This document shows, piece by piece, positions 41,768 through 55,690 of a stretch of DNA of 64,000 nt. The stretch spans positions 2,265,980-2,329,979 of the forward strand of contig NZ_GL892076.1 in the NCBI RefSeq assembly GCF_000213975.1. Reading direction: 5' to 3'. Made by a program: the position numbers and the translations under genes. The DNA comes from Centipeda periodontii DSM 2778 (GTDB lineage Bacteria; Bacillota; Negativicutes; Selenomonadales; Selenomonadaceae). The stretch's first letter is position 1, and the number at the start of each line of letters is the position of its first letter. The notes below the pieces were generated by a model. The model worked only from the letters and a program-made list of their open reading frames with translations, was not told the origin of the DNA and did no database searches.

Positions 41768-42010
41768 ATGCTACAGCCAAAAGTACTCGATGTACAGCCC
41801 CTTCCTGATTATAAATTGCTGCTGCTCTTTGAGACAGGCGAGAAGAAAGTTTTTGATGTAATGCCGTACATCAAAGGGTCATGGTACGAAAAGCTAAAAG
41901 TTCCCGCTGTTTTTCAAACAGTTCATGTATCAGGTGCTACAGTTACATGGGCAGATGGGCAGGACATTGCCCCACACGAGCTCTATGACAATTCTGTACC
42001 TGCTGTTTGA
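41768..42010 (+). CDS. DUF2442 domain protein
   Basis: An 80-residue protein matching DUF2442 in style: PKVLDVQPLPDYKLLLLFETGEKKVFD, a central helix, and VTWADGQDIAPHELYDNS at the end. The family is often found beside DUF4160 or toxin-antitoxin genes; no such partner is here. AAAGGAG ribosome-binding site. Followed at once by two more very small genes. Confidence 0.75.
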   Translation: MLQPKVLDVQPLPDYKLLLLFETGEKKVFDVMPYIKGSWYEKLKVPAVFQTVHVSGATVTWADGQDIAPHELYDNSVPAV

Positions 42011-42435: not shown

Positions 42436-42459
42436 GGGAAAACATCTATTGGAATACCA

Positions 42460-42506
42460 AACAGGGCAGATACAGAGGTGATGAGCCTCCGTATCTGCCC
42501 TGTTTT
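42460..42506. terminator. Bidirectional terminator between the small genes and the A+T-rich cassette
   Basis: An approximately 18-pair stem (42460-42478 with 42486-42503) with one mismatch, T4 on the right and A-rich sequence on the left. The DUF6259 gene stop falls in its edge. Confidence 0.88.
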
Positions 42507-44264
42507 ATTCTTCTCCTTGAAGTTTCAAGCAAGTAACTTCTCCCGCATCAATTGAAATCTTTACCTGCTTTATCCCCTCCCCTATGATTTTATCGCTCCA
42601 TACATCATAAACGTCCATCGGCTTTGAAAAGGAAAACACCTTATATTTTCTGCTCTTTGATGCGTTATAAAGTGTCCAAAGCGTTGCTTCTTCATCTATG
42701 AATGAATTAACGCATATTCCTTCTGGATCGTAATATAGCAATGGAATACAATTTTCGGATCTAAATTGTCTGTTCTGTTTCAAAATACGATAAATTTTTC
42801 GCAATAAAAACAAAAATTCTGAGCTAAACCATTTTTCATCATTGACGTTACCAGAAATCCAAATTCCTTGTCCGTTAAAAAATATAAGTTTTAGACTCTG
42901 TATATCGTTTCCGATGGGCTCATCACATCGAATAATGACAAATTGACGAAAGAGAGGAAATGCAAAACGCGTTAAGTTAATAATCCCTTTCCCATAGGTG
43001 AGTGATGCTTGTTGATACATGATGGTGTTATCTACAGGAAAATACTCTGTTAAAACAGAAGTGTTTAATGATCCTAAACTTTTCAGAAACATTCTCTCTC
43101 CATCCAACTGCGTTTCCGCACAATGTTGATGCGCATTGTTATGACATGAGTACTGAATCCCACAGCCATACTCATCAATGTAAACAGCATCGGGATTTAA
43201 CTGTTGAATTGCTAATTTTATCTTGTTATATAGAGCCTGATGCCATTCTTCAACCCTCGGGCAACACGTCCAAAAAGCCGCTCCAACATAAGAATATATT
43301 TTTTCTTGGCATTCATTACTTGCCATATACGCCCTTTCAATCGCCCCAAGCGCGACGATTTGCTGATAAGATAACCTTCAAAATATAATCCTGTTCGTAC
43401 ACCTTTGCTTCTCAAATATTGAAAACCTGCGGCAAGACGCCAGCTGCCGCCAAGATACGCCCATGGCATGTAATCTCCTACACGTCCGCTTTCTGGGGTT
43501 TGCCCCCAATCAAATAACTGAACATAATCAACGCCGCCCAAAGCCTTCTGATCTTCCTGTAGCTTTTCCTCAATGCAATAGTTCCCGGACTTTTTCTCAA
43601 AAATCCCATCATCATAGTTCTCATGTAAAAACCATTGACGAAAAACATATGAATTTTGCAGCCAAATAGGTGACACTGCACCGCTCAAATGACGTTTTTC
43701 CCACAGTTGACGATAAAGGCATAAACTTTCATGCCAATCTCCATCACGAATATCAAGCACTATCTGCAGAACAAGTATATCTTGAGGAGAAATCTCTCCT
43801 TGATAGTATATCTTCGCGTAAATTTCTCCATCGCTCGTTTTGTTGAGATAAAACCTCTTCCGATCTTGTGTTTCATCTAACGAAACAAGGGTTAGCACGC
43901 GTCCTCCTACACCAAAGATACTAAGAAATTGCATAGGAAACCAAGTGCTATATTCAAGGTCATATTCTGCACAATCCGATGAAATAAACGGTTCAAGCGA
44001 TGGAAAACAGTATTTCCAGTTTTCTTGTTTTAACACTTTTAAGGAGGGAAATGTCACCGTAAAGTTTTGCTTTCTCTTTGTAGTGTTTTCCTTCCTTAAC
44101 TCAAGTAATACTGCAGTATCAGAAAAACGGTGAACACGCACTTCCCCTCCATGTTCAACGAGTTGGCAAAATCGACTAATTTCTCCTATGCATTTATCAT
44201 TGAGGACAATCAATTGTTCATCTTGAAAAGCCATAAAGAATGATTTATTTTCTATCTTTTTCAT
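42505..44264 (-). pseudogene. DUF6259 glycosidase-like protein, frameshifted as read
   Basis: Two overlapping frames together make one protein of about 586 residues. The upstream frame (44264 to about 43305) has a beta-rich N-terminal part and the start of a TIM-barrel-like domain (VDYVQLFDWGQTPESG, SKGVRTGLYFEGYLIS). The downstream frame (to 42505) continues with FWTCCPRVEEWHQAL and NPDAVYIDEYGCG, the barrel acid motif of DUF6259. Adding one A to the coding-strand A6 run at 43299-43304 joins them. Likely acts on glycans, substrate unknown. Last gene of the A+T-rich cassette; start overlaps the 85-aa gene stop. Confidence 0.7.
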
Positions 44265-44518
44265 TTTTCTAGATGGCTTTCACGAACTAATACGATGTTC
44301 TTATAAGCATCACGCGTACGTTTTCCCATTTGATACTTAGCATTTGTTTCTTCAATGAATTGCATATATGAAGGAAATTTTCTTGGGTCTACATACGTCA
44401 AAAAATAAACAAATCGTGCCCATTTTACACGAATATGCCATGGCATCCAGCATAGAGAAAACATGCTAATGATTATTCCAAAAACTCGTATTCCAAAAAA
44501 TTTGATTGCTTTTTTCAC
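44261..44518 (-). CDS. 85-residue protein of unknown function in the glycan cassette
   Basis: Starts MKKAIKFFGIRVFGIIISM: a hydrophobic N-terminal half (one or two membrane-associated segments to about residue 45) and a basic hydrophilic C-terminal half. Lies four bases after the glycosyltransferase stop, and its stop overlaps the DUF6259 start (ATGA). No family recognised. Tight packing suggests a product that works with its neighbours. Confidence 0.7.
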   Translation of the reverse strand: MKKAIKFFGIRVFGIIISMFSLCWMPWHIRVKWARFVYFLTYVDPRKFPSYMQFIEETNAKYQMGKRTRDAYKNIVLVRESHLEK

Positions 44519-44522
44519 GGTT

Positions 44523-45497
44523 TTATACCTCCAATAGCTGTCGCACAGCTTTCATCGCATCTCTATTATTTTCTTCTCTAATTCTTTTAGCTGTTTCAAC
44601 TGCCTGCACGGATGCATTCTCATAAACTTCATCGTTATCTACAAGTTCGAGAATGGCGCTTGCTATTTTTTCTGCATCATTAAAGTCTACTATCTTGGTA
44701 GCAAATGGGACAGTTGTCGAAGAAACAGTCGGTGTTCCATGTATCATATGCTCATAAATAATGTACGAGAATGTTTCTGAGTACGATACTTGGAGACCGA
44801 TATCCATTTGTTCTAAAATTTGATGCATCTCAGAGTTACTGCATTGTGGATGAAGAACAAACGGAAAATTCATATTGCTCAACAAGGAAAGTGTATTATG
44901 GTATACTGAGTTCATTTTAGATTCTAACAAATGAAGTTCAATGGGTAAATACTTATACAGAATACTACATGCAGTAATCTGCGTCATTATATTCTTAAAT
45001 GGACGATATGCACAAAACAACGCTATGCGGATAAAATCATGATTTCGTTTTCTCTTTCTCGGCTTTATTATGGAATTGTATGTATTGGGGAGATAGATCA
45101 CATTGGCTTTCGCATACGAAAGAAAGCCCACCACCTCATAACAGCAGGGATTTGCAAGAAAGAATCGAGGATGCGATATTTGTAAATATTCCTGAACATT
45201 GTCAAATGCCTCTTCTTCTACCTGCAAAAACGAAATTGTAGAATGAATAACGAGGCATACTGTACATCCTATTTCCAATAGTTGCTCTATACAGCCACGC
45301 CTGAAAGTCGGAGCTTGGAGTAAAACAACATCAACAGGGTTGCATTTTACATATGAAAGTAAATCCTCATCATTTTGATAACCATACGAATGACACAAGA
45401 TGCCTTCTGAATGTATGAGGTTCTCCAAATGATAATTTGATACCTTCACCCCCGTATCAAATCCAAAATCCCGATACAGCATTAATATTTTTTTCAT
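44523..45497 (-). CDS. GT4-type glycosyltransferase
   Basis: A 324-residue protein with two Rossmann-like halves and a C-terminal GT-B pattern: IALFCAYRPFKNIMTQI, LLESKMNSVYHNTL, QMDIGLQVSYSETFSYIIYEHMIHGTPTVSS, where the Glu of YSETFSYIIYE corresponds to the EX7E sugar-nucleotide site. It begins MKKILMLYRDFGFDTG. Sequence diverges considerably from common GT4 enzymes, so donor and acceptor are unknown. ATG at 45497 overlaps the PP-loop gene stop by four bases. Confidence 0.78.
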   Translation of the reverse strand: MKKILMLYRDFGFDTGVKVSNYHLENLIHSEGILCHSYGYQNDEDLLSYVKCNPVDVVLLQAPTFRRGCIEQLLEIGCTVCLVIHSTISFLQVEEEAFDNVQEYLQISHPRFFLANPCCYEVVGFLSYAKANVIYLPNTYNSIIKPRKRKRNHDFIRIALFCAYRPFKNIMTQITACSILYKYLPIELHLLESKMNSVYHNTLSLLSNMNFPFVLHPQCSNSEMHQILEQMDIGLQVSYSETFSYIIYEHMIHGTPTVSSTTVPFATKIVDFNDAEKIASAILELVDNDEVYENASVQAVETAKRIREENNRDAMKAVRQLLEV

Positions 45498-46243
45498 AGT
45501 TTTTCTCTCAATGCACGATCTATATACTCTCGTATGAATGGCAATTTTTTCGCAATCCATTTTTTTGATACCTCAATGTAGGCTTGCTTTCCTTTCAGAG
45601 GTAAATAATAACACCGCAAATACAAATTATGGAATTGTCCTCCGCCAATACACCTTGGCTGTTCTTCATAAAAAGGGTTGTCCAAGGCATTTTTCTCATT
45701 ATATTCTTCTAAAAGAACTTCCGATGATGTTTTCTGATGCAAGAGAGGTGTGTGATAGGAAATTCCGTATTCTTTGTAAAGCTGACGAACCATATCAACA
45801 GCCCATTCCTGCTGAAACAGATCAAAGCCGGTAAGCTCATTTACACCATCCGCTGAGTTACCAACTCCATTGATCTTGCAAAATATAATCGTGTTTGCGT
45901 GATGAGATAATCTACATGATGGACAAAATGTTGCCGCATTATATGTTTTGAATTGGATAAGATCATGGAAATAATTTTTTTGTACCAGATCTCTAAGTAA
46001 TTGGTTCGTATCCAGCAGGTGGTGGTTTATCCTCGCTTTTTTCCTAAAGTACTCTTCCAGCTTCTCTACGTTTTTGTAAACTTTATCTATATCTGTCATC
46101 AAGTCCGTCTGAAATGTCAATAAATGCAACGTCTTCATCTGATATTTCTCTATCAAATGAATTGCTGTCAATGTAGAATCGCGCCCGCCCGTAAACTGCA
46201 AAGAGCAGCTGTTTTCTTCATTCATGCTAGAATATTGTTCCAT
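45494..46243 (-). CDS. PP-loop (N-type) ATP pyrophosphatase-like protein
   Basis: A 249-residue protein with the PP-loop FTGGRDST at 17-24 (compare SGGxDS), a CPSC pair at 107-110, and a C-terminal CIGGGQFHNLYLRCYY segment. PP-loop enzymes adenylate a substrate (as in QueC, TilS and sugar amidotransferases) before attack by N or S. With a glycosyltransferase downstream, activation of a sugar or glycan precursor is possible, but this is inference. ATG at 46243 with AAAGGGA eight bases upstream. First gene of the cassette. Confidence 0.75.
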   Translation of the reverse strand: MEQYSSMNEENSCSLQFTGGRDSTLTAIHLIEKYQMKTLHLLTFQTDLMTDIDKVYKNVEKLEEYFRKKARINHHLLDTNQLLRDLVQKNYFHDLIQFKTYNAATFCPSCRLSHHANTIIFCKINGVGNSADGVNELTGFDLFQQEWAVDMVRQLYKEYGISYHTPLLHQKTSSEVLLEEYNEKNALDNPFYEEQPRCIGGGQFHNLYLRCYYLPLKGKQAYIEVSKKWIAKKLPFIREYIDRALREKL

Positions 46244-46308
46244 AGAATTTATCCCTTTCTCTCGCGCGTACATCGTACGCACTTATCCACAGATTCTCTC
46301 TGTCTTTT

Positions 46309-46337
46309 ATGTTAGCACTTTTCACCCCCCCCGTAAA
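46309..46337 (-). promoter_or_regulatory. Candidate cassette promoter with a G8 run in the spacer
   Basis: Minus strand TTTACG (46332-46337), 17 bases, TAACAT (46309-46314). The spacer begins with seven of eight consecutive G (C8 at 46325-46332 on the plus strand). Changes in run length would alter the -35/-10 spacing. Confidence 0.45.
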
Positions 46338-46351
46338 GACGTTGGCGATAC

Positions 46352-46380
46352 AAAAAAAGAGCAGAGATAGTCTGCTCTTT
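46352..46380 (-). terminator. Terminator of the ula operon
   Basis: AAAGAGCAGA pairs with TCTGCTCTTT around a short loop, followed on the minus strand by a T7 run. It separates ulaF from the A+T-rich cassette. Confidence 0.88.
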
Positions 46381-46398: not shown

Positions 46399-47097
46399 TT
46401 ACTTCTTCTGCCCGTAGTAGGCGTTTGCGCCGTGCTTGCGGAGGAAATGTTTGTCGAGGAGTGTCTGCTGCATTGCCTGCACGCCCGGCATGAGCATCTC
46501 GGTGTGGAACGCCATCATGGCGACCTCCTCAAGAACGATGGCGTTGTGCACGGCATCAAAGGGATCTTTGCCCCAACAGAACGGGCCGTGATTCTTGACG
46601 AGGACGGCGGGGACGTGGTCGGGGTTCAGATGTGCCTTTTCAAAGCGCTCGACAGCGACCACTCCCGTGTTGTACTCGTAGCCACTCTTGATCTCCTCCT
46701 CGGTCATATCACGTGTGCACGGAATCTCGCCGTAGTAGTAGTCGGCGTGCGTTGTCCCGTAGGCATGCACACCACACCCCGCCTGTGCAAACAGGGTTGC
46801 CCAGCGCGAATGCGTGTGCACGACGCCGCCGATGTTCGGGAATTTCTGATAGAAAATGCGATGCGTCTCGGTGTCCGAGGACGGATTCAGATCTCCCTCA
46901 ACGCGCTTGCCGTCGAGATCGACGACGACCATATCCGACGGCTTCATTTCATCGTACTCCACACCCGACGGCTTAATGACGAAAAGCCCCTTTTCGCGGT
47001 CGATGCCCGACACGTTCCCCCATGTAAACGTCACGAGATGGTGTTTCGGCAGAAGCATATTCGCCTGATAGACCTGCTCCTTAAGTTGTTCCAGCAT
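46399..47097 (-). CDS. ulaF: L-ribulose-5-phosphate 4-epimerase (UlaF/AraD family)
   Basis: A 232-residue class II aldolase-fold epimerase. Zinc ligands are in HTHSRWA and the later [10 protein letters not shown]; the N-terminal TWGNVSGID and [11 protein letters not shown] blocks are diagnostic. It converts L-ribulose-5-phosphate to D-xylulose-5-phosphate. Its place after ulaE and the ula PTS genes makes UlaF more likely than an arabinose enzyme. Confidence 0.88.
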
Positions 47098-47109
47098 ACT
47101 GTTCCCTCC

Positions 47110-48159
47110 TTAGGTCAGTTCGTAGCGCGCGATCTCGTCGATCTCGCGATTCGTCGCGATGAGGATGTCCTTGCCCTCGTAGACATAGTGCAGGACATTC
47201 GCCGCGCCGCAGCCACGATCGAGTTCCTGCGCGACATAGCCCTTGCCCTCCTCATAGGTAAAGGCGAGGAGCAGCCGTTCGCCCTTGCGGTGTCCGAGAA
47301 TCCACGTCGGTTTTCCGCAGATCATGCCGCCAAAGATGGCGTGGAGGAATTCGAGTTTTTCAGGATAGGTGTAGACGAGCGTGAATTTCCCGTTCTCCTG
47401 CTTGTAAATGTTGATCGTGTCGCCGTGGAACGGCGCGATCGTACACAGCTCCTCCACGCCGTCCCCATCGAGATCAAGCAGCAGGCCATCACTCGCCGCA
47501 TCGGAAATGAGTTCGTCGATGCACCACGCATCGCCCTCCTCCGTTGGCGGGTAGAAGCGGAACACGCCGTTGTCCGTCGATACGATGCTGCTCATCGCGC
47601 CGCTCTCATCGACGTGACGATAGTAGCCGTGGTTCTTGAGCAGCCCCTCCTTCAGGATCTCGAGCTGCAGCTGGTTCTCATCGTTATACGACGAGAGATC
47701 GGCGGGCAGTTCTGCGGCAAAAACTCTGCCCGCGAAGCGCCAGTCCTCCTTGTACTCATGCCCTGACTTCAGCGCACAGGCGATGAGATAGTTCCGTCCA
47801 CCCGACTGCAGGATGTCGAAACGATGGACAAAAGGCAGGTCGCAGAGCGTCCGCACCTCCCAATCATCTTTTCCGCGCGGAGTAACGATGACAATGGATG
47901 CCTCCTTGCCGTCATTCGGTGAGTAGAACTTGCGCGTGGCAAGGAACTGCCCATCCGTGCCCGGAACCTGCACCATCGTCATGACACCTCCGGGTCCCTC
48001 CCAGACGGTCTCCTCGATGTCACCGTCGAGGTTGATAAGGTAGCACTTGTCCACCTTTTCCGCTGCGCAGAGGAAGTGCCGCGTGCCCTTGTAGTTCAGC
48101 ATGGTAAGTGAGTAGCATTTGGCAAGTTCGCCAATGATCTTCTTCTTTACATTCAGCAT
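47110..48159 (-). CDS. Unknown protein embedded in the ula operon (FG-GAP/VCBS-like)
   Basis: A 349-residue soluble protein without signal peptide. It has recurring beta-propeller-like segments and one LDLDGDGVEEL motif (about residue 227), as in FG-GAP/VCBS calcium-binding repeats. It sits between ulaE and ulaF with short spacers and good ribosome-binding sites, so it belongs to the operon. No counterpart in the classical ulaABCDEF set is known to me, while UlaD (3-keto-L-gulonate-6-phosphate decarboxylase) is missing here. Replacing UlaD is only speculation. Confidence 0.65.
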   Translation of the reverse strand: MLNVKKKIIGELAKCYSLTMLNYKGTRHFLCAAEKVDKCYLINLDGDIEETVWEGPGGVMTMVQVPGTDGQFLATRKFYSPNDGKEASIVIVTPRGKDDWEVRTLCDLPFVHRFDILQSGGRNYLIACALKSGHEYKEDWRFAGRVFAAELPADLSSYNDENQLQLEILKEGLLKNHGYYRHVDESGAMSSIVSTDNGVFRFYPPTEEGDAWCIDELISDAASDGLLLDLDGDGVEELCTIAPFHGDTINIYKQENGKFTLVYTYPEKLEFLHAIFGGMICGKPTWILGHRKGERLLLAFTYEEGKGYVAQELDRGCGAANVLHYVYEGKDILIATNREIDEIARYELT

Positions 48160-48171
48160 ATTGTTTCCTCT

Positions 48172-49020
48172 CTACTCTGCTGCCGCATCGAGTGCGCGGC
48201 GCAGGAATGTATTGGCAAAGGCGAGGTCAGCTTTCCAATCCGCGCTTCCTATGTACCAGAACTCGCCGACATAGCGTCGCACGCCGAGTGCCCACGCCTT
48301 CCGTGCGATGGCGTCGAAATCGACGTGCCCCGTTCCAAACGGAATTTCACGATACTTCCCGGGCACAGTCTCCTTCAGATGCAATGCGACCATGTGACCG
48401 CGTCCCGTCTCCATATCATCGAGCACACTCTTGCCGTAGATGAGCGCGGCATTCGTCAGATTGCCGCTGTCAGGGTAAACGCCGAGGTAGGGCGAGTCCA
48501 CGAGGTCGACGTAGTGCATCGCCTTTTCGACCGTATCCATAAACGGCGTCTCCATCGTCTCAAAGCCGAGCTGCACGCCGCTGCGCGCCGCAAGCAGTGC
48601 AGACTTCGCGAGATTGCGCGCAAACGCCGCACGCGTCTCCTCTGTGCCCTTGTCGTAGTAGACATCGTAGCCTGCGAGCTGAATCGTCCGAATTCCGAGC
48701 TCTACCGCAAGGTCGATGGCGTCTGCCATGATCTCTATGCTCCGCACCTGCTTCGCAGGATCGGGACTCCCAAGCGGATATTTTCGATGTCCGCTGAGAC
48801 AGATTGAGCCGAACAGGATCCCCGTCGTGCGCATCGCAGCGCGGATCTCCTCCATCTCCGCCGCACTCATATGGAGACGCGCGAGCTTTTCGTCCGTTTC
48901 GTCAATGCTCATCTCCACATAGTCAAAGCCCGCCTCCTTCGCAGCGGTCAGCTTCTCGCGCCATGTGAGCGCAGACGGCATGGCCTTTTCATAGAGTCCG
49001 AGCTGATAGCTTTTTCCCAT
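48172..49020 (-). CDS. ulaE: L-xylulose-5-phosphate 3-epimerase UlaE
   Basis: A 282-residue AP-endonuclease-2-like TIM barrel epimerase, with LGLYEKAMP at the start, SICLSGHRKYPLGS, LAGYDVYYDKGTEETR and the metal-site residues in GFETMETPFMDT, YPDSGNLTNA and HLKET. It converts L-xylulose-5-phosphate to L-ribulose-5-phosphate for UlaF. Confidence 0.92.
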   Translation of the reverse strand: MGKSYQLGLYEKAMPSALTWREKLTAAKEAGFDYVEMSIDETDEKLARLHMSAAEMEEIRAAMRTTGILFGSICLSGHRKYPLGSPDPAKQVRSIEIMADAIDLAVELGIRTIQLAGYDVYYDKGTEETRAAFARNLAKSALLAARSGVQLGFETMETPFMDTVEKAMHYVDLVDSPYLGVYPDSGNLTNAALIYGKSVLDDMETGRGHMVALHLKETVPGKYREIPFGTGHVDFDAIARKAWALGVRRYVGEFWYIGSADWKADLAFANTFLRRALDAAAE

Positions 49021-49082
49021 AATTGCCCCCGTTCATTTGGAAAAAAGAGGAGCCACCGCCGGCGACTCCCCTCTCGTATGAT

Positions 49083-49361
49083 TTACTTAATGCCGGCAGC
49101 CTGAATCTTTTCCTCCATCTCGCCCTCGGACAGGAGATTCTTCAACCCGATGACGACTGGCTTCGTCCCCTTGAACGTGTCCACGAGCGATGCCGAGCAA
49201 AAAACAACATCGTAGTTGTTCGCCTGTGACTTCGCATCACCGACGTTCGTGTGATAGACCTCTGCATCAATGCCGAGCTTCTTGAAGACCTTCGCGAGCT
49301 TCATTTTGATAATCTGCGAGGATCCCATACCGCTGCCGCATGCTGCAATGACTTTCAACAT
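49083..49361 (-). CDS. ulaB: PTS ascorbate-specific IIB
   Basis: A 92-residue lactose/ascorbate-type IIB with phospho-Cys8 in AACGSGMGSSQ. AAAGGAG upstream of the ATG. It transfers phosphate from UlaC to the incoming ascorbate through UlaA. Confidence 0.92.
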   Translation of the reverse strand: MLKVIAACGSGMGSSQIIKMKLAKVFKKLGIDAEVYHTNVGDAKSQANNYDVVFCSASLVDTFKGTKPVVIGLKNLLSEGEMEEKIQAAGIK

Positions 49362-49400
49362 TTTAATGCACTCCTTTATAGTAAATACAACAGACTGACC

Positions 49401-50888
49401 TTAGTCGATAACCACCTTGTCCACAGGCACGCCCTGCTTCTTCGCCATGACTTCCTTGTATTCGTCGAAGTCCTCGGCGATGAGGAAGTAGGTGTCTTTA
49501 TTGCGCCGGTAAATGATCTGTGGAATGGTGAGCAGAATGATGACCACCACTGCAACGCCGACATACTGGAAGTTGTTCATGATGACGCCGATGAACGGCC
49601 AGATCGTATCCCAGTCAAAATTTCCGTGCCAGCCGCCGAACATCCCTGTCGTGAAGTAGTACGCTGCAAAGCCGCCGCCGAGCACCTGGATCATGCCACT
49701 GAAGAACGGGATGATCGCCGCCGCGCGCACGCCGCCGAGACGGTTTGCAAAGACGGCAAAGGTCGCGTTGTCGAAGAAGAGCGGTACGAATCCGCTGATG
49801 ATGAGGATCGGACTCTCAAAGACAATCAGACCGATAATCGCGAGAAATTGACCGAACGCACCAAAGAGAAAGCCGAACGTCACAGCGTTCGGATGACCGA
49901 AGCCGTAGGTCGCTGCACAGTCAACCGCAGGCACGGAGCCGGGCAGCAGCTTCTCGGAGATGCCTTGGAACGAGTTGGTCAGCTCCGAGACGAACATACG
50001 GACGCCGAGCTGCAGGATCGTGAGGTAGACGGCGAAGTTGAACGATTTTTCAACAATATAGAAGACAAAATTCTGCTTCTCGCTGAACCCCTTGTCGATC
50101 TGGTGCATGAGATCCGCACCGAGAATCGAGATGATCGCGCCGAAGAAGAATGTCATGAGAATACCGGTCGCAACGACATTCTCGTTGAAGATGGAGAGGA
50201 AGCCCGGCAGTTTCAGATTCTCAAGCGACTTCTGCGGATTGCCGATCTTCTTGGCGAGCTTCGAAACGAGGAAGATGCCAAACATCTGTTGATGACCTGT
50301 CGCAAAGCCACCGCCCTCGGTGAGCTTCGCCACAGGCTCGACGGTGAGGTTCGAGGCGACCGACCAGTAGGTACCGAGCAGGACGCCCAGCATGAGCACA
50401 ACACCCGGATCCTGCAGTTCGGGGAAACAGAAGAGGACGAGCCAGAGCGCTGTCGAGGACTGCTGCACCATGACGTGCCCCGTGATGAAGAGCGTGCGGA
50501 TCTTCGTATACCTGCGCAGCATGACGAGCAGGATGTTGATGGCAAACGCGATCAGGAGCACCATCATCATCATCGAGAACGAGCGTCCGATGTGTTCCAC
50601 GCTCATCTGCGCCGCCGCCTGCCCGAAATATGGGTCGATGACCGCTGCCGAAAGGTCAAAGCGATCCTTCAGCCCTGCCAGCACCGGACGGAAGTTCCCA
50701 ACAAGTCCGCTCGATGCAACCATCAGGATCATGTAGCCGACGACCGCCTTGATAAAGCCCGCTATGCATTCGTAGATGGGTTTTTTCAGAAGAGCGTAGC
50801 CGACAAAGACGATGAAGCCGATAAAGAACTGTGGCTTCGTGAGGATGTTGTTCTGGAAGAATTCCCAGACAGACAATACAATTTCCAT
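49401..50888 (-). CDS. ulaA: PTS ascorbate-specific IIC (UlaA/SgaT)
   Basis: A 495-residue membrane carrier with about 11 membrane segments, of the UlaA fold distinct from the glucose superfamily. It brings in L-ascorbate as the 6-phosphate. Family motifs GATYWSV-like (LLGTYWSVASN), GGGFATGHQQMFG and AATYGFGHPNAVTFGF are visible. The neighbouring IIB and IIA support the assignment. Confidence 0.93.
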   Translation of the reverse strand: MEIVLSVWEFFQNNILTKPQFFIGFIVFVGYALLKKPIYECIAGFIKAVVGYMILMVASSGLVGNFRPVLAGLKDRFDLSAAVIDPYFGQAAAQMSVEHIGRSFSMMMMVLLIAFAINILLVMLRRYTKIRTLFITGHVMVQQSSTALWLVLFCFPELQDPGVVLMLGVLLGTYWSVASNLTVEPVAKLTEGGGFATGHQQMFGIFLVSKLAKKIGNPQKSLENLKLPGFLSIFNENVVATGILMTFFFGAIISILGADLMHQIDKGFSEKQNFVFYIVEKSFNFAVYLTILQLGVRMFVSELTNSFQGISEKLLPGSVPAVDCAATYGFGHPNAVTFGFLFGAFGQFLAIIGLIVFESPILIISGFVPLFFDNATFAVFANRLGGVRAAAIIPFFSGMIQVLGGGFAAYYFTTGMFGGWHGNFDWDTIWPFIGVIMNNFQYVGVAVVVIILLTIPQIIYRRNKDTYFLIAEDFDEYKEVMAKKQGVPVDKVVID

Positions 50889-50913
50889 TCCCCTGCCTCC
50901 TTATGGCTGAATC

Positions 50914-51360
50914 CTATTCCTCAATCGCACGCAGGTCTTCGGGCGTTTTTGCCGCAAGAAGCTTTGCGACAATTGTTTCATCCGACAGGCACTCCGAGAG
51001 TTCCATCAGATTTTGGATGTGCTCCTCGTCGTCCGCTGCCGCAAGGACAACGAAAATGCGTGCGTCATGCTCCCCGTCCTCATGGAAACGTACGGGCTTT
51101 TCGGTCTTCATGAAGCACATTGCCGTATGGTTCACGCCGCGCCCGCGCTCCGCGTGCGGGATGCAGATGTCGGGGGCAATCACGATGTAGGGGCCGAGCT
51201 CCTCCACCTTTTCGATGATAAAGGAGGCATACTCCGGCTCGATGCTACCGTCCGCCTCGAGTGGTGCGCAGGCGGCGCGGATCGCATCTCGCCAGTCGTC
51301 AAAGCCCTCGTGGAACGAATAGTGTTTCTGTGCAACAAATTCCTTGAACAATACTGTCAC
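50914..51360 (-). CDS. ulaC: PTS ascorbate-specific IIA
   Basis: A 148-residue mannitol/fructose-type IIA with the phosphorylated His69 in CIPHAERGRGV. It passes phosphate from HPr to UlaB. Start uncertain: GTG at 51360 or TTG six codons... upstream spacing favours either weakly (GAGGG is eight bases before a TTG at 51351). Confidence 0.88.
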   Translation of the reverse strand: MTVLFKEFVAQKHYSFHEGFDDWRDAIRAACAPLEADGSIEPEYASFIIEKVEELGPYIVIAPDICIPHAERGRGVNHTAMCFMKTEKPVRFHEDGEHDARIFVVLAAADDEEHIQNLMELSECLSDETIVAKLLAAKTPEDLRAIEE

Positions 51361-51368
51361 CCTCTCTC

Positions 51369-52472
51369 TTACAGACAGGAACGGAACGGAATGTTCTGCG
51401 GATGCTCGAAGCAGTCTTCGAAGCCGCGGCGATGATGATAGTAGATCTTGTCCTTGTCCTGCGGATAGACATAGCGACCGCCGACCTGCCAGAAGAACGG
51501 ATGGAACCCATACTCGTTGCGATCCTTCTTGAAATCATAGATGAGCTTGATCTCATCGCAGTCCGCCTGGAAGTTCGACCACACATCCCAGTGGATCGGA
51601 CAGACCACCTTGCATCGCAGATTCTCTGCCATGCGCAGGATGTCAATGGAGGTCATCTTATCCTGCATGCCGATCGGATTCTCACCGAACGAACCAAACG
51701 CGACGTCAATGTCGTAGTCCTTGCCATGCTTTGCGAAGTAGATCGAGAAGTGAGAGTCGCCCGAATGGTAGATGTTGCCGCCTGGCGTCTTCAGGAGATA
51801 GTTGACCGCCTTCTCATCCATATCCGTCGGACACTTGCCTGTCAGTTCCTCCCGATCGGGTCCCGTCGAATCCGTCGTCACGATGCAGGTACGGTCAAAG
51901 CTGTCAAGCGCGATGATCTCAATATCCTTGATCTTGATGACATCGCCCGGCACAACCGTGCGGCACCGCTCTGCAGGTACGCCCCATTTGATCCATGTCT
52001 CCACGGACTTTTTCGGACCAATGAAGGGAACCGGAATGTCCCTGCCGTCCTCGTCTGTCGTCGTCATGCCGCTCTGAATGACGTGCGCCGCCCACTCTGC
52101 CGACATGTGATCCTGATGATAGTGCGTTGCCAAAACCGCATCCACATGCTTGAACGCGAACGGATCGATGACGAAGGGGACGTTGCGCAGATTCGGCTGC
52201 ATGTTGCGACAGCCGCACATATTCGCCATCTGATGACCGACCGCCATCTTGCCGTTGCCGTGCGTGCGCTTGCCATTGCCACACCAGAGGTCGACCGTCA
52301 AATTCGCGCCGCCGGGGGTCTTGAACCAGATTCCTGTACAGCCGAGCCACCACATAGCGACCTGCCCCTGCGGAACCTCATAGCCCTCGATCTCCTCGAC
52401 CAGCCATGTCCCCCACTCGGGAAACGTGTTCATGATCCAGCTCTCACGCGTCATGTCTGATACCTTGCTCAT
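51369..52472 (-). CDS. ulaG: L-ascorbate-6-phosphate lactonase UlaG
   Basis: A 367-residue metallo-beta-lactamase-fold lactonase. The metal site THYHQDHMS, later His in YHSGDSHFS and HWD, and the N-terminal [11 protein letters not shown] and WWLGCTGIW blocks identify UlaG. It opens L-ascorbate-6-phosphate to 3-keto-L-gulonate-6-phosphate. First gene of the operon, with AGGAGGAG upstream of the ATG. Confidence 0.95.
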
Positions 52473-52546
52473 AATGCTCCTCCTATTTGCTCATTGAATT
52501 ATAAAACATAGCTTTGTGGAACTTTTATGTCATTATATCACCATTT

Positions 52547-52657
52547 TATGCTCATTTCAAGTATTTTTATGGAAGATAATTATTTTCATCATGCGTTATA
52601 CGTTCATTTTTTATTTTAACGGTTGATTCCTTTTCGATTTTTGATATAATGAGCATA
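52547..52657. promoter_or_regulatory. Divergent ula control region with paired operator motif
   Basis: The decamer AATGAGCATA occurs at 52648-52657, overlapping the -10 of the regulator, and in inverted orientation (TATGCTCATT) at 52547-52556 on the ulaG side. The spacing of about 100 bases would suit looping by a DeoR-type repressor. The 243-base intergenic region is very A+T-rich. Confidence 0.5.
52623..52650 (+). promoter_or_regulatory. Promoter of the DeoR-type regulator
   Basis: TTGATT (52623-52628), 16 bases, TATAAT (52645-52650), 66 bases before the ATG at 52716. Confidence 0.65.
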
Positions 52658-52715
52658 TCAAATACGATAAGCATATTTTATGAGAAAATATCTCAAATAT
52701 AGAAAGGAATATGTA

Positions 52716-53513
52716 ATGAAAAGCAGCAAAGCCGTCATATACAGACGTCAGCAAAACCTCCTGAAGCTCCTACAACGGGAGAAGACCATTGAGGTGGAAA
52801 GCGCCGCACAGGAACTCGGTGTCTCGCCCACAACGATACGGCGCGATCTGCAAGAATTCTCAAAGCAACGGCTAGTCACACGTTTTCATGGAGGGGCGCA
52901 GCTGATCGCGGGCACCTTACAAGAAGAGGATCCCCCCGAGAACGGAGACCCGAAAGCGCGCATCGACCGCAGCCAGAAGGAAGCCATTGCCCGCCGTGCT
53001 GCCGAGCTCATCGAAGACGGCGATACCATCTTTATGAACTCGAGTTCGACCACGATGCTGCTTCTCGACTACATCAAGGACAAGCGTGTCATTATCGTGA
53101 CGAACAACAGCCACGTCATCGGCTACCCGCACGCCCCATCTGTGACGATCATCCTGACGGGCGGGGAGATCTATGAGCGGCGGCAGTCGCTCGTCGGGGA
53201 TTTTGCTCTCCAAACACTCAGTAAGATCAATGCGAACAAAACGTTCCTTGGCGTCTCCGGGATCAACGCGAAAAGCGGCATAACAACCTCAGTGTTGCCG
53301 GAAACCGCCATCAACGAGATGATGATGCGACACTGTCAGGGCAACTGCTATGTGCTTGCCGCGCGCGGTAAGATCGGGCACACGCACAATTTCCGCTCCG
53401 GCAGCATCCGCCATGTCCATACACTTATTACCTGCAATGGTGCGGATGCGGATGCCCTCGCCGAGATTGCTGCTACAGGCATACGCGTCATTGAAGTTGA
53501 GGAGAATATCTGA
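52716..53513 (+). CDS. DeoR-family repressor, probable ula regulator
   Basis: A 265-residue DeoR protein: N-terminal winged helix with SAAQELGVSPTTIRRDLQEF, the following RFHGGAQL hinge, and a sugar-phosphate-binding ISOCOT domain (FMNSSSTTMLLLDY, TGGEIYERRQSLVGDFA). UlaR proteins belong to this family, and L-ascorbate-6-phosphate is the known inducer there. Divergent from ulaG. ATG at 52716 with AAAGGA seven bases upstream. Confidence 0.88.
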   Translation: MKSSKAVIYRRQQNLLKLLQREKTIEVESAAQELGVSPTTIRRDLQEFSKQRLVTRFHGGAQLIAGTLQEEDPPENGDPKARIDRSQKEAIARRAAELIEDGDTIFMNSSSTTMLLLDYIKDKRVIIVTNNSHVIGYPHAPSVTIILTGGEIYERRQSLVGDFALQTLSKINANKTFLGVSGINAKSGITTSVLPETAINEMMMRHCQGNCYVLAARGKIGHTHNFRSGSIRHVHTLITCNGADADALAEIAATGIRVIEVEENI

Positions 53514-53532
53514 AGAACTACACGAAAGCACG

Positions 53533-53569
53533 AAAAAACTCGCCTTGCATAACGCAAAGCGAGTTTTTT
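53533..53569. terminator. Bidirectional terminator
   Basis: AAAAAACTCGC (53533-53543) pairs with GCGAGTTTTTT (53559-53569); an inner TTGC/GCAA extends the stem. It ends the regulator gene and the convergent MATE gene. Confidence 0.88.
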
Positions 53570-53591
53570 GATGGATCGAATGCACCACGGC

Positions 53592-54935
53592 TCAGGACGC
53601 ACACCGCAATGTCTTCTCCGTCCAAAAATACGCGATCACAACAGGAATTGCCGCGCCGATCCATGCGAGTGGATTCGCCAGACACGCGCCGAGGAAGCCG
53701 AGGGGCGCGCAGAGGAGGAGCGCCGCGCCCGTGCGCATGATGAGCTCCATCGCGCCCGCAATGGTCGGAACGACGCTCTGCCCGAGTCCCTGCAGGACGT
53801 TGCGATAGACAAGCAGGAGTGCGAGGATAACGTAGCACGAACCATTGACGATGAGGTAAGTATGCCCGTAGGCGATGACCTCCGCAGCCCCCGCCGCATC
53901 CGCACCGACGAACAGTTCGAGGAAGAATGTGCCGAACGCGATGAGGAGGACGCCGATGCCGACGGCAAACGCCATCGACATTTTGAGGCACGCGCGCACG
54001 CCTATGCGAATGCGCTCGTATTTCTGCGCGCCGTAGTTCTGCGCCGTGTACGCCGCCATCGCGTAGCCGAACGAGAGCATGGGCATAACGGCGACAGCGT
54101 CGATCTTCTGCGTCGCTGCGTACGCTGCAACGGGCAGTGCACCGAGGTTGTTCAGTGCGACTTGCAGGATAATCGCACCGATGGCGATGACGGAGGACTG
54201 AAACGCCATCGGCAGCCCCATGTGCAGATGTGCCATAAGGACGAAGGTGTTCGGCTTCCAGTCCGAGAGGTGCGTATGGAGCGCAGGCACACGTCGCCGT
54301 ATATAGATCCAGAAGAGGAGCGCACCGATGCCCTGTGAGAAAACCGTCGCAAGCGCCGCGCCCGGGATTCCCCAGCCGAGTACGAGGATGGCAATCGGCT
54401 CGAGTGCAACATTGATTGCGAGCGTGACGGCGAGCAGAATCGTCGGCATCTTGCTGTCACCGAGCGCACGGATGAGGCAGTTTTGCATGTAGAGCAGGAG
54501 AAAGATGATAAGTCCCGCAAAGATGATCGAGATGAAGTCATACGCTCCGTCCAAAATCTCGGGCGGCGTTTCCATCAGCACGAGCAACGTGTGCGTGAGC
54601 GGCAAGACGATTACGGTGAGTGTGAGTGTCACGGCAACGCCGAGTAGAATGCACGCCGCAGCACTCTGCCGCACGCCCCGCCGATCACCCGCGCCGAACC
54701 GCTGTCCCGTGTAGATCGTAACACCCGTACAGAACCCCATGATAAAGCCGAGCGTCAGGAACATGAGGCTGCCCGTGCAGCCGACCGCCGCGAGCGCGTT
54801 CACCCCAAGGAAACGTCCGACAATGAGCGTATCAATAAAGGCATAGAGCTGCTGCATCATATTGCCCGCGACAAGCGGCAGGGCAAAGAAGAAGATGAGC
54901 CGTGTCGGATCGCCCTCCGTCATGTTCTTCGTCAT
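53592..54935 (-). CDS. MATE-family efflux transporter
   Basis: A 447-residue protein with 12 predicted membrane segments in two MatE repeats. The start MTKNMTEGDPTRLIFFFALPLVAGNMMQQLY and the QNYGAQKYERIRIG block are typical of the DinF/NorM-like group that exports drugs or cationic metabolites with Na+ or H+. Substrate unknown. Coupled by a four-base overlap to the upstream YdcF-like gene. Confidence 0.9.
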   Translation of the reverse strand: MTKNMTEGDPTRLIFFFALPLVAGNMMQQLYAFIDTLIVGRFLGVNALAAVGCTGSLMFLTLGFIMGFCTGVTIYTGQRFGAGDRRGVRQSAAACILLGVAVTLTLTVIVLPLTHTLLVLMETPPEILDGAYDFISIIFAGLIIFLLLYMQNCLIRALGDSKMPTILLAVTLAINVALEPIAILVLGWGIPGAALATVFSQGIGALLFWIYIRRRVPALHTHLSDWKPNTFVLMAHLHMGLPMAFQSSVIAIGAIILQVALNNLGALPVAAYAATQKIDAVAVMPMLSFGYAMAAYTAQNYGAQKYERIRIGVRACLKMSMAFAVGIGVLLIAFGTFFLELFVGADAAGAAEVIAYGHTYLIVNGSCYVILALLLVYRNVLQGLGQSVVPTIAGAMELIMRTGAALLLCAPLGFLGACLANPLAWIGAAIPVVIAYFWTEKTLRCAS

Positions 54936-55690
54936 TCGAGGTACCTCGTCACAAAGATGCGCAGCTTCTCTTGGAGATAGACCGTATTTGTGAGAAGTGC
55001 CCCCGCGTTTGGTGCAAACTTGATGAGATAGATCTGCGGATCGCCGCTCACCCAGAAATCCGTCGGATACGGTGTCACCGTAACCCCCTCCTTCTCGAAA
55101 TTCAGCACGGCACGCGGCAGGTGGAACGCCGAGGTCACAAGGATCGGCTGTGTGAAGCCCTCACGCCGCAGAATCTCCGCCGAATAGCGCGCATTCTGCC
55201 CTGTCGTGAGACTGTTCCCCTCCACATAGATCATTTCATCGGGCACGCCGAGCGAGCGCAGGACGCGCCGCGCAATCTCCGCCTCTGAGCCGGTGTCGCT
55301 GAACACCTGCCCGCCCGAGAGCAGGATTGGCAGACGATGGATGTGATAGAGCCGCAGCACTGTGAGGAGCCGCGACGACGGACTCTGCGCGAGCATCCCC
55401 ACACCATCCACATCCTGCACCTCTGCGATCGCCCCGCCACCGAGCATGACGATCACATCCCCCTGCGCTTCCGCAGGCACATCATATGTCCGCTCAAGGT
55501 CTCCCATCAGACGATCAGCAACCGCTCCGATGGAGAGCAGATAGAGCGCAAGAACAAGTGCTGTGAGCGCTCCTGCCGCACGATGTTGGTGTCGTTTTTT
55601 CCAGAGATAGACGGCAATCCCGAGCATTGCGAGAATAAAGATCCCCGGCGGGAGTATCCATGCCGCACCGAATTTCAAAATATAGATCAA
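54932..55690 (-). CDS. YdcF/SanA-like DUF218 membrane protein
   Basis: A 252-residue protein with two N-terminal membrane segments (about 5-30 and 38-60) and a DUF218 domain. Family motifs: IVMLGGGA, LLSGGQVFSDTGSEAEIARRVL, GNSLTTGQNARYSAEIL and LVTSAFHLPRA. DUF218 proteins (ElyC, SanA, YdcF) are linked to envelope integrity and undecaprenyl-linked steps. The 55691-55871 gap upstream holds no recognisable element. Confidence 0.88.
   Translation of the reverse strand: MIYILKFGAAWILPPGIFILAMLGIAVYLWKKRHQHRAAGALTALVLALYLLSIGAVADRLMGDLERTYDVPAEAQGDVIVMLGGGAIAEVQDVDGVGMLAQSPSSRLLTVLRLYHIHRLPILLSGGQVFSDTGSEAEIARRVLRSLGVPDEMIYVEGNSLTTGQNARYSAEILRREGFTQPILVTSAFHLPRAVLNFEKEGVTVTPYPTDFWVSGDPQIYLIKFAPNAGALLTNTVYLQEKLRIFVTRYLE

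Follow-up and report, generated by a model that had tools for sequence, protein, structure and literature searches.

The described systems with which the locus considered here is best compared are the 6-thioguanine clusters. According to passages in PMC7994395, a cluster of Staphylococcus chromogenes makes 6-thioguanine, for which TgsB is predicted to transfer sulfur, and the compound suppresses the growth of Staphylococcus aureus; passages in PMC6225789 name 6-thioguanine a virulence factor of Erwinia amylovora and describe two cysteines in MnmA (Cys102, Cys199) and a [4Fe-4S] cluster on three cysteines in TtuA. For promoters, a parallel comes from Neisseria, where homopolymers between the -10 and -35 regions of porA, fetA and opc are thought to alter sigma-factor binding (passages in PMC2791445; the PorA homopolymer promoter also appears in parts of PMC3639595). 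Here we describe a cassette of four genes on the minus strand (46243 to 42505) of a 64-kb window, i.e., the whole stretch of 64,000 nucleotides analysed from Centipeda periodontii DSM 2778. In order of transcription, it comprises genes for a PP-loop protein, a GT4-type glycosyltransferase (GT), an 85-amino-acid (aa) protein and a DUF6259 protein (Table 1). We propose, with a probability of roughly 0.43, that it is a horizontally acquired accessory pathway of four genes for a modified, membrane-linked sugar compound, the last step of which is damaged here; the product is what we infer.

A four-gene cassette in a variable slot

The composition and spacing of the genes support a coupled unit of foreign composition that is sharply bounded. 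The PP-loop and GT genes overlap by 4 bases (ATGA), as do the 85-aa and DUF6259 genes, and a gap of 4 bases separates the GT gene from the 85-aa gene. The G+C content of the cassette genes is 33-40%, compared to 57-59% in araD, the next upstream gene and the ABC-transporter gene; at third positions, it is 26-38%, compared to 75-77% in the same three flanking genes. On the other flank, a small DUF2442 gene (41768-42010) is also low in G+C (44%; third-position 38%), and the low G+C therefore does not end exactly at the cassette border.

We searched 189 genomes of the family, 380 of the class and 398 of the phylum for relatives. The protein search with the PP-loop protein found two of the 189 family genomes (the window genome and G136) and one of the 398 phylum genomes, the window genome itself; a profile search of the 380 class genomes returned the same two, and the protein search gave no match in the 13 other genomes of the same genus. 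The second holder, an uncultured Selenomonadales, carries all four genes in the same order as in the window; its contig corresponds to L004 (CAMVIO010000128.1), the frames of the two lying at identical places. Two scans of genome contigs for relatives gave none in the first and L004 only in the second. With a wider PP-loop profile (A4), the phylum set yielded the window protein and four others, by eye three MnmA-like and one QueC-like. The 85-aa profile matched 27 of the 189 family genomes at E <= 0.1, but strongly only in the two cassettes (8.4e-55 and 1.1e-52); the third-best match has an E of 0.007, and the other 25 genomes are regarded as noise.

The proteins of the two cassettes share 62% (PP-loop), 52% (GT) and 62% (85-aa) identity, and the two pieces of the window DUF6259 gene are 42% and 48% identical to the L004 protein. 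Synonymous sites are saturated (proportion of synonymous differences, pS, 0.76-0.85), whereas the nonsynonymous proportion (pN) is only 0.24-0.42, and the proteins are thus under constraint; the 85-aa and PP-loop genes have the lowest pN, and DUF6259 is the least conserved of the four. The L004 cassette is A+T-rich as well (G+C 34-36%, compared to 43% for the preceding 499 bases and 61% on the downstream side), and those of its neighbours that were read, a frame of 92 aa upstream and genes with WYL domains downstream, are unlike the neighbours in the window. Because the order is the same in two genomes with differing neighbours, the four genes seem to travel together.

The slot was compared at the DNA level in four of the 13 same-genus genomes. 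Window homology on contigs L040 (genome G025) and L041 (G034) runs to 42509 and 42515, respectively, is followed by a gap, and resumes from 46283 or 46278 to 46357 or 46363; L042 (G029) is homologous at 42459-42506 and 46305-46380, in agreement with the other two. These comparisons place the cassette borders at approximately 42510-42515 and 46278-46283. In these three genomes, the slot holds frames for an AAA-ATPase, a protein of about 370 aa and Sel1 repeats (L040 3483-8481, L041 3755-8768, L042 2650-9117), with an additional transposase-like frame in L042 and the Sel1 part split into two frames in L041; none of these three proteins is found in the 64-kb window. The fourth genome (G028, contig L025) has araD at the corresponding place (87.5% at the DNA level), followed by different small genes. 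The upstream border lies in a promoter/leader that is common to same-genus genomes and situated between the araD terminator and the cassette, and the strong terminator-like hairpin downstream is kept in L040, L041 and L042. Taken together, these results indicate that the locus is a variable slot, in which the cassette fills the coding place between a promoter/leader and a terminator, so that two unrelated operons alternate between one promoter and one terminator. Given the rarity and composition of the cassette, it was probably the cassette that replaced the other operon, not the reverse. A small Cys-rich frame precedes the AAA/Sel1 operon, and its protein of about 370 aa has no Pfam match. 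The araD region (window 46400-53530) is missing at this place in G025, G034 and G029, where a MATE-type efflux gene (window ~53530-55690) follows the slot directly.

The sequence-only reading had described one coupled unit, as we find, and a sharp drop in G+C at both flanks, which holds for the three genes named above but not for the DUF2442 gene. It had taken both junctions for terminators; the downstream one is a terminator-like hairpin, while the upstream one is the promoter/leader. Co-occurrence of the four families had been set beforehand as its test, and both genomes that hold the PP-loop gene have all four in order.

Table 1. Features of the cassette and its borders (positions in the window)
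Feature	Position	Strand	Basis or detail
PP-loop protein, 249 aa	45494..46243	-	TGGRDS, C107xxC110, C122, C198; GTG start at 46282 possible
GT4-type glycosyltransferase, 324 aa	44523..45497	-	EX7E motif E241/E249
85-aa basic protein	44261..44518	-	one hydrophobic segment, ~residues 5-25
DUF6259 protein, first piece to frame break	43299..44264	-	Pfam; alignment with L004
Run of six A, DUF6259 frame lost	43299..43304	-	comparison with the unbroken L004 protein
DUF6259 protein, second piece in another frame, conserved IDEY motif	42505..43298	-	Pfam; alignment with L004
Promoter-like element TCTTTAC-G8-TGAAAAGTGC-TAACAT	46309..46339	-	pattern match; 17-base spacer, 8-G run 46325-46332
DnaA-box-like 9-mer TGTGGATAA	46283..46291	-	immediately after the -10; identical to the DnaA box consensus TTATCCACA
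Terminator-like hairpin	42452..42512	-	dG -37.9 kcal/mol, z -9.3; kept in L040, L041, L042

The PP-loop protein and its partners

Among the proteins compared, the PP-loop protein appears closest in sequence to YcfA/TgsB. A profile search of the PDB gave 9kq6, named in the fold listing as YcfA of E. amylovora, as the sole match at E <= 0.1 (E 7.7e-7); a literature search for 9KQ6 found no paper. In hhalign comparisons with the PP-loop profile, TgsB-type proteins reached 98.6% (E 1.1e-15, columns 11-172 of 249), MnmA-like proteins 42%, one QueC-like protein (L021) 54% and one TtcA 0.6%, the last two having been entered as single sequences and thus not quite like-for-like with TgsB and MnmA. The TgsB-like proteins of Staphylococcus, Alicyclobacillus and Vibrio plasmids are about 25-27% identical to the window protein, and its C-terminal third does not align with YcfA/TgsB. 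In an alignment of five rows, the TGGRDS loop and a central cysteine are invariant; this cysteine, C122, is aligned with C113 of YcfA, which we take to be the catalytic one of the family. C107, C110 and C198 are shared with L004 but missing in the YcfA-like rows and, judging from how MnmA and TtuA use their cysteines, could form a second sulfur or metal site. The best Pfam match is the PP-loop-like family DUF7411 (PF24167), at 21.4 bits against a cut-off of 28.7, a family that the Staphylococcus TgsB-like protein passes (29.7 against 28.7).

Several other PP-loop families were considered and rejected. With NCBIfam models, the protein scored 12.8 of 150.3 bits for QueC (TIGR00364) and 18.5 of 203.2 bits for WbuX/WbpG (TIGR03573), the two enzymes that had been named for comparison from the sequence alone; YcfA/TgsB is closer than either, and QueC is represented in the hhalign figures above by L021. 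TtcA of Escherichia coli K-12 was set aside on its hhalign value, although the spacing of C107xxC110 and C198 recalls TtcA, TtuA and MnmA. DndC/SspD was rejected as the SspD match is limited to the ATP-binding stretch.

Plasmid records gave five distant matches to the PP-loop protein, three of which were looked at, and none to the GT or to the 82-aa protein of L004. All three relatives examined are adjoined by NUDIX, HAD and EamA/DMT genes; a gene for a pyridoxal-phosphate-dependent protein is annotated in one (L006), only a DUF6024/aminotransferase-like gene is present in the second (L007), and neither in the third (L005). From its gene order, the L006 cluster is probably the 6-thioguanine cluster of S. 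chromogenes. On a Vibrio coralliilyticus plasmid (L007, 7031-10780), a YcfA-like gene stands with fused NUDIX-HAD, DUF6024 and EamA genes; this locus, annotated as hypothetical proteins, is possibly a 6-thioguanine-type cluster in Vibrio. Another is possibly formed on an Alicyclobacillus acidoterrestris plasmid (L005, 6986-9696) by a YcfA/TgsB-like gene accompanied by genes for a NUDIX protein, a DMT transporter and a HAD protein.

An EX7E motif in the C-terminal half marks GT4 enzymes. The window GT has it as E241-x7-E249 in SETFSYIIYEHM, and the motif is also present in L004. Scores for the window protein are just under the Pfam cut-offs (Glyco_trans_1_4 26.4/27, Glycos_transf_1 24.3/26.4), while the L004 protein passes Glycos_transf_1 (35.9/26.4) and stays just under Glyco_trans_1_4 (26.3/27). 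Among phage profiles, the glycosyltransferase profile phrog_2170 also matches the GT (E 2.3e-10), which has no PDB relative at E <= 0.1. The 85-aa protein is basic with a single hydrophobic stretch, and scans of Pfam and NCBIfam returned no accepted family. Thus, three of the four cassette proteins can be assigned to a family by sequence, and the 85-aa protein is without a known one.

The DUF6259 gene is continuous in L004, where it encodes 600 aa, and broken in the window into two frames of 348 aa (44264-43218) and 273 aa (43326-42505), which part at the run of six A. The window pieces score 24.8 and 19.6 bits against the PF19773 cut-off of 28.7, each matching its own half, whereas the L004 copy passes with 51.8 bits and belongs to this family, a glycosidase-like barrel family. 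Weak similarities of the L004 protein to Cwp19 (E 0.043) and, under cut-off, to GHL15 (E 0.0069) fit such a barrel. Since the N-terminus of the DUF6259 protein is not strongly hydrophobic and no signal peptide is evident, the protein is probably intracellular. Plasmid records hold one distant DUF6259 match, and a literature search found no paper that mentions DUF6259. The last step of the cassette is predicted to be damaged in the window genome. As to the earlier view of the GT and DUF6259 proteins, the family assignments look right, with passing copies in L004 and window copies short of the cut-offs; DUF6259 as one intact gene did not survive.

A putative G-run promoter in front of the cassette

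The promoter-like element upstream of the cassette contains the sole run of at least seven G or C in the 64-kb window. A general sigma-70 scan of the window did not list this element, and we therefore infer promoter activity from its conservation. The pattern TCTTTAC-G6+-TAnnAT has 27 matches in 15 of the 189 family genomes (6 of 30 genera), 16 of them within one genus (g23), while a reversed control pattern has none in the same 189 genomes. Some of the 27 are orthologues of each other, so the matches are not independent. Probable chance matches were kept in the count: L071 and L072, which have a spacer of 13 and an antiporter-like frame that starts 11 bases further, and perhaps L064, with a spacer of 14. 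The run has 6, 7 or 8 G, and the length of the spacer varies with it. For example, between G174 on the one hand and G175 and G176 on the other, which is a comparison across species, the promoter and the next 27 bases differ solely in having a run of 6 or 7 G.

The -10 region of the window promoter is closely followed by a 9-mer identical to the DnaA box consensus. Within 60 bases after the -10, a DnaA-box-like 9-mer with at most one mismatch occurs in 14 of the 27 matches, compared to frequencies of 1.07% in control windows (n = 1118) and 1.88% in shuffles (n = 5400); it stands in either orientation and at offset 9 or 17 in 12 of the 14. Ten first-downstream proteins, picked for variety from the 27 matches, comprise three ShlB/FhaC-type transporters, two glycosyltransferases (GT9 and GT2), two methyltransferases, one hexapeptide transferase and two without a Pfam hit, one of which looks lipoprotein-like by eye. 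The same promoter also precedes the AAA/Sel1 operon. The genes behind G-run promoters are a possible phase-variable regulon, and expression of the cassette in the window may switch with the length of the promoter G-run. Literature searches found no paper on phase variation by homopolymeric tracts in Selenomonas, and 'DnaA box' is absent among the matches listed for phase variation and poly-G.

Proposed function and comparison with known systems

On the proposal that the cassette is an acquired pathway for a modified sugar compound, the PP-loop enzyme would use ATP to activate a small substrate, probably one linked to a nucleotide, at a carbonyl or hydroxyl group and would insert sulfur (or nitrogen) into it. 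The GT4 enzyme would transfer a sugar onto this product or together with it, the 85-aa protein would hold the enzymes at the membrane, and the DUF6259 barrel protein would trim or rearrange the glycoside inside the cell. The end product would be a modified, membrane-linked sugar compound, and expression in the window would perhaps be switched by the length of the promoter G-run. Sulfur is favoured by the family of the PP-loop protein, not by its partner genes, and as the inserted atom it is a guess: unlike in the plasmid clusters, desulfurase, NUDIX and exporter genes are missing from the cassette. Cells do have housekeeping cysteine desulfurases.

Several points weigh against the proposal. 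The cassette is known from two genomes only; in both, NUDIX, HAD, EamA/DMT and desulfurase genes are missing among its four genes, and it contains no gene for nucleotide-sugar synthesis, a polymerase or a flippase. The structure models are poor, with a mean predicted local distance difference test (pLDDT) score of 32.5 for DUF6259 and 50.6 for the PP-loop protein. In the PDB fold list of the latter, YcfA chains come first (E 1.2e-3, TM ~0.3) but none reaches E <= 0.001, and with so weak a model the match is in mere agreement with the sequence result; the structure prediction once recommended for this protein has thus yielded a concordant fold list from a poor model. Moreover, G136, with its intact cassette, has no G-run promoter match, and any switching must therefore be ascribed to the window slot rather than to the cassette itself. 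The accessory surface-glycan or glyco-metabolite system first suggested for these genes is compatible with our results and, by its promoter type, somewhat likelier in the window, although the promoter is not shared by G136.

Among the alternatives, the one we take most seriously, though we consider it unlikely, is sugar amidation, in which the PP-loop protein would act as WbpG/WbuX do (sugar or acid to amide or amidine) and the cassette would be an ordinary module for decorating a surface polysaccharide. It draws on a weak WbuX match (residues 14-114 of the 262-aa form, E 0.0011), the adjoining GT4 gene and the glycosyltransferase and methyltransferase genes behind the same promoter type elsewhere. 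However, the WbuX score is far below its cut-off, and another 643-aa frame of the window genome scores slightly better with this model; the YcfA/TgsB match is longer and stronger, albeit in an hhalign comparison that did not include WbuX. WbpG and WbuX work with glutaminase/cyclase partners, and the cassette has no genes for these. We also rate as unlikely, and place after amidation, that decay of the cassette has begun in this strain, where an imported unit would have lost its last gene and perhaps all function. The break at an A-run of DUF6259, a gene that is intact in L004 and the least conserved of the four, and the absence of the cassette from the 13 same-genus genomes point that way, but the remaining three genes have open frames that are conserved in L004, and a sequencing error or a recent event could also give a single break.

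A bolder version of the pathway, which strikes us as improbable, has the cassette make a new sulfur compound that carries a sugar: the YcfA-like enzyme, equipped with an extra cysteine site (possibly Fe-S or zinc), would thiolate a nucleobase, nucleotide sugar or lipid head, the GT4 enzyme would glycosylate it at the membrane, and the intracellular glycosidase-like protein would release or activate it. The family would drop such pathways into slots behind G-run promoters with DnaA-box-like 9-mers, so that surface and competition genes would switch randomly, tied to the replication cycle. Least credible, and very unlikely, is a module for defence or for the thiolation of nucleic acids, comparable to DndC/SspD, in place of a pathway for a glycan or metabolite. 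Phosphorothioation systems do contain PP-loop proteins, and in a PADLOC scan confined to the cassette proteins, the PP-loop protein weakly matched SspD (residues 15-71, E 4.2e-4) and RT_UG35 (E 0.0014). The match to SspD does not extend beyond the ATP-binding stretch, though, and in PADLOC the GT, the 85-aa protein and the L004 DUF6259 protein all went unmatched. The PP-loop protein is accompanied by a glycosyltransferase and a glycosidase-like protein; relatives of the PP-loop (two scans), GT and 85-aa proteins are absent from viral contigs, as are relatives of the PP-loop and GT proteins from phage records, but the GT does match the phage profile mentioned above.

Compared with YcfA/TgsB, the window PP-loop protein has the TGGRDS loop, the conserved cysteine and the DG motif in common, and differs by the extra C107xxC110 and C198 and by its C-terminal third. 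Coupling of a distant family member with a glycosyltransferase and a small membrane protein would suggest an undescribed class of product. With the tRNA thiolation enzymes MnmA, TtuA and TtcA, it shares the PP-loop core and a CxxC with a later cysteine, but profile matches to them are weak or missing. The N-acetyl sugar amidotransferases WbpG/WbuX are alike in the PP-loop fold and a possible sugar context, with the TIGR03573 score falling far short. As for the promoter, which may belong to a phase-variation system in this family, the likeness to porA, fetA and opc of Neisseria lies in a spacer run, here of 6 to 8 G, whose length sets that of the spacer; the difference is the DnaA-box-like 9-mer that follows about half of those described here, in most cases at a fixed offset.

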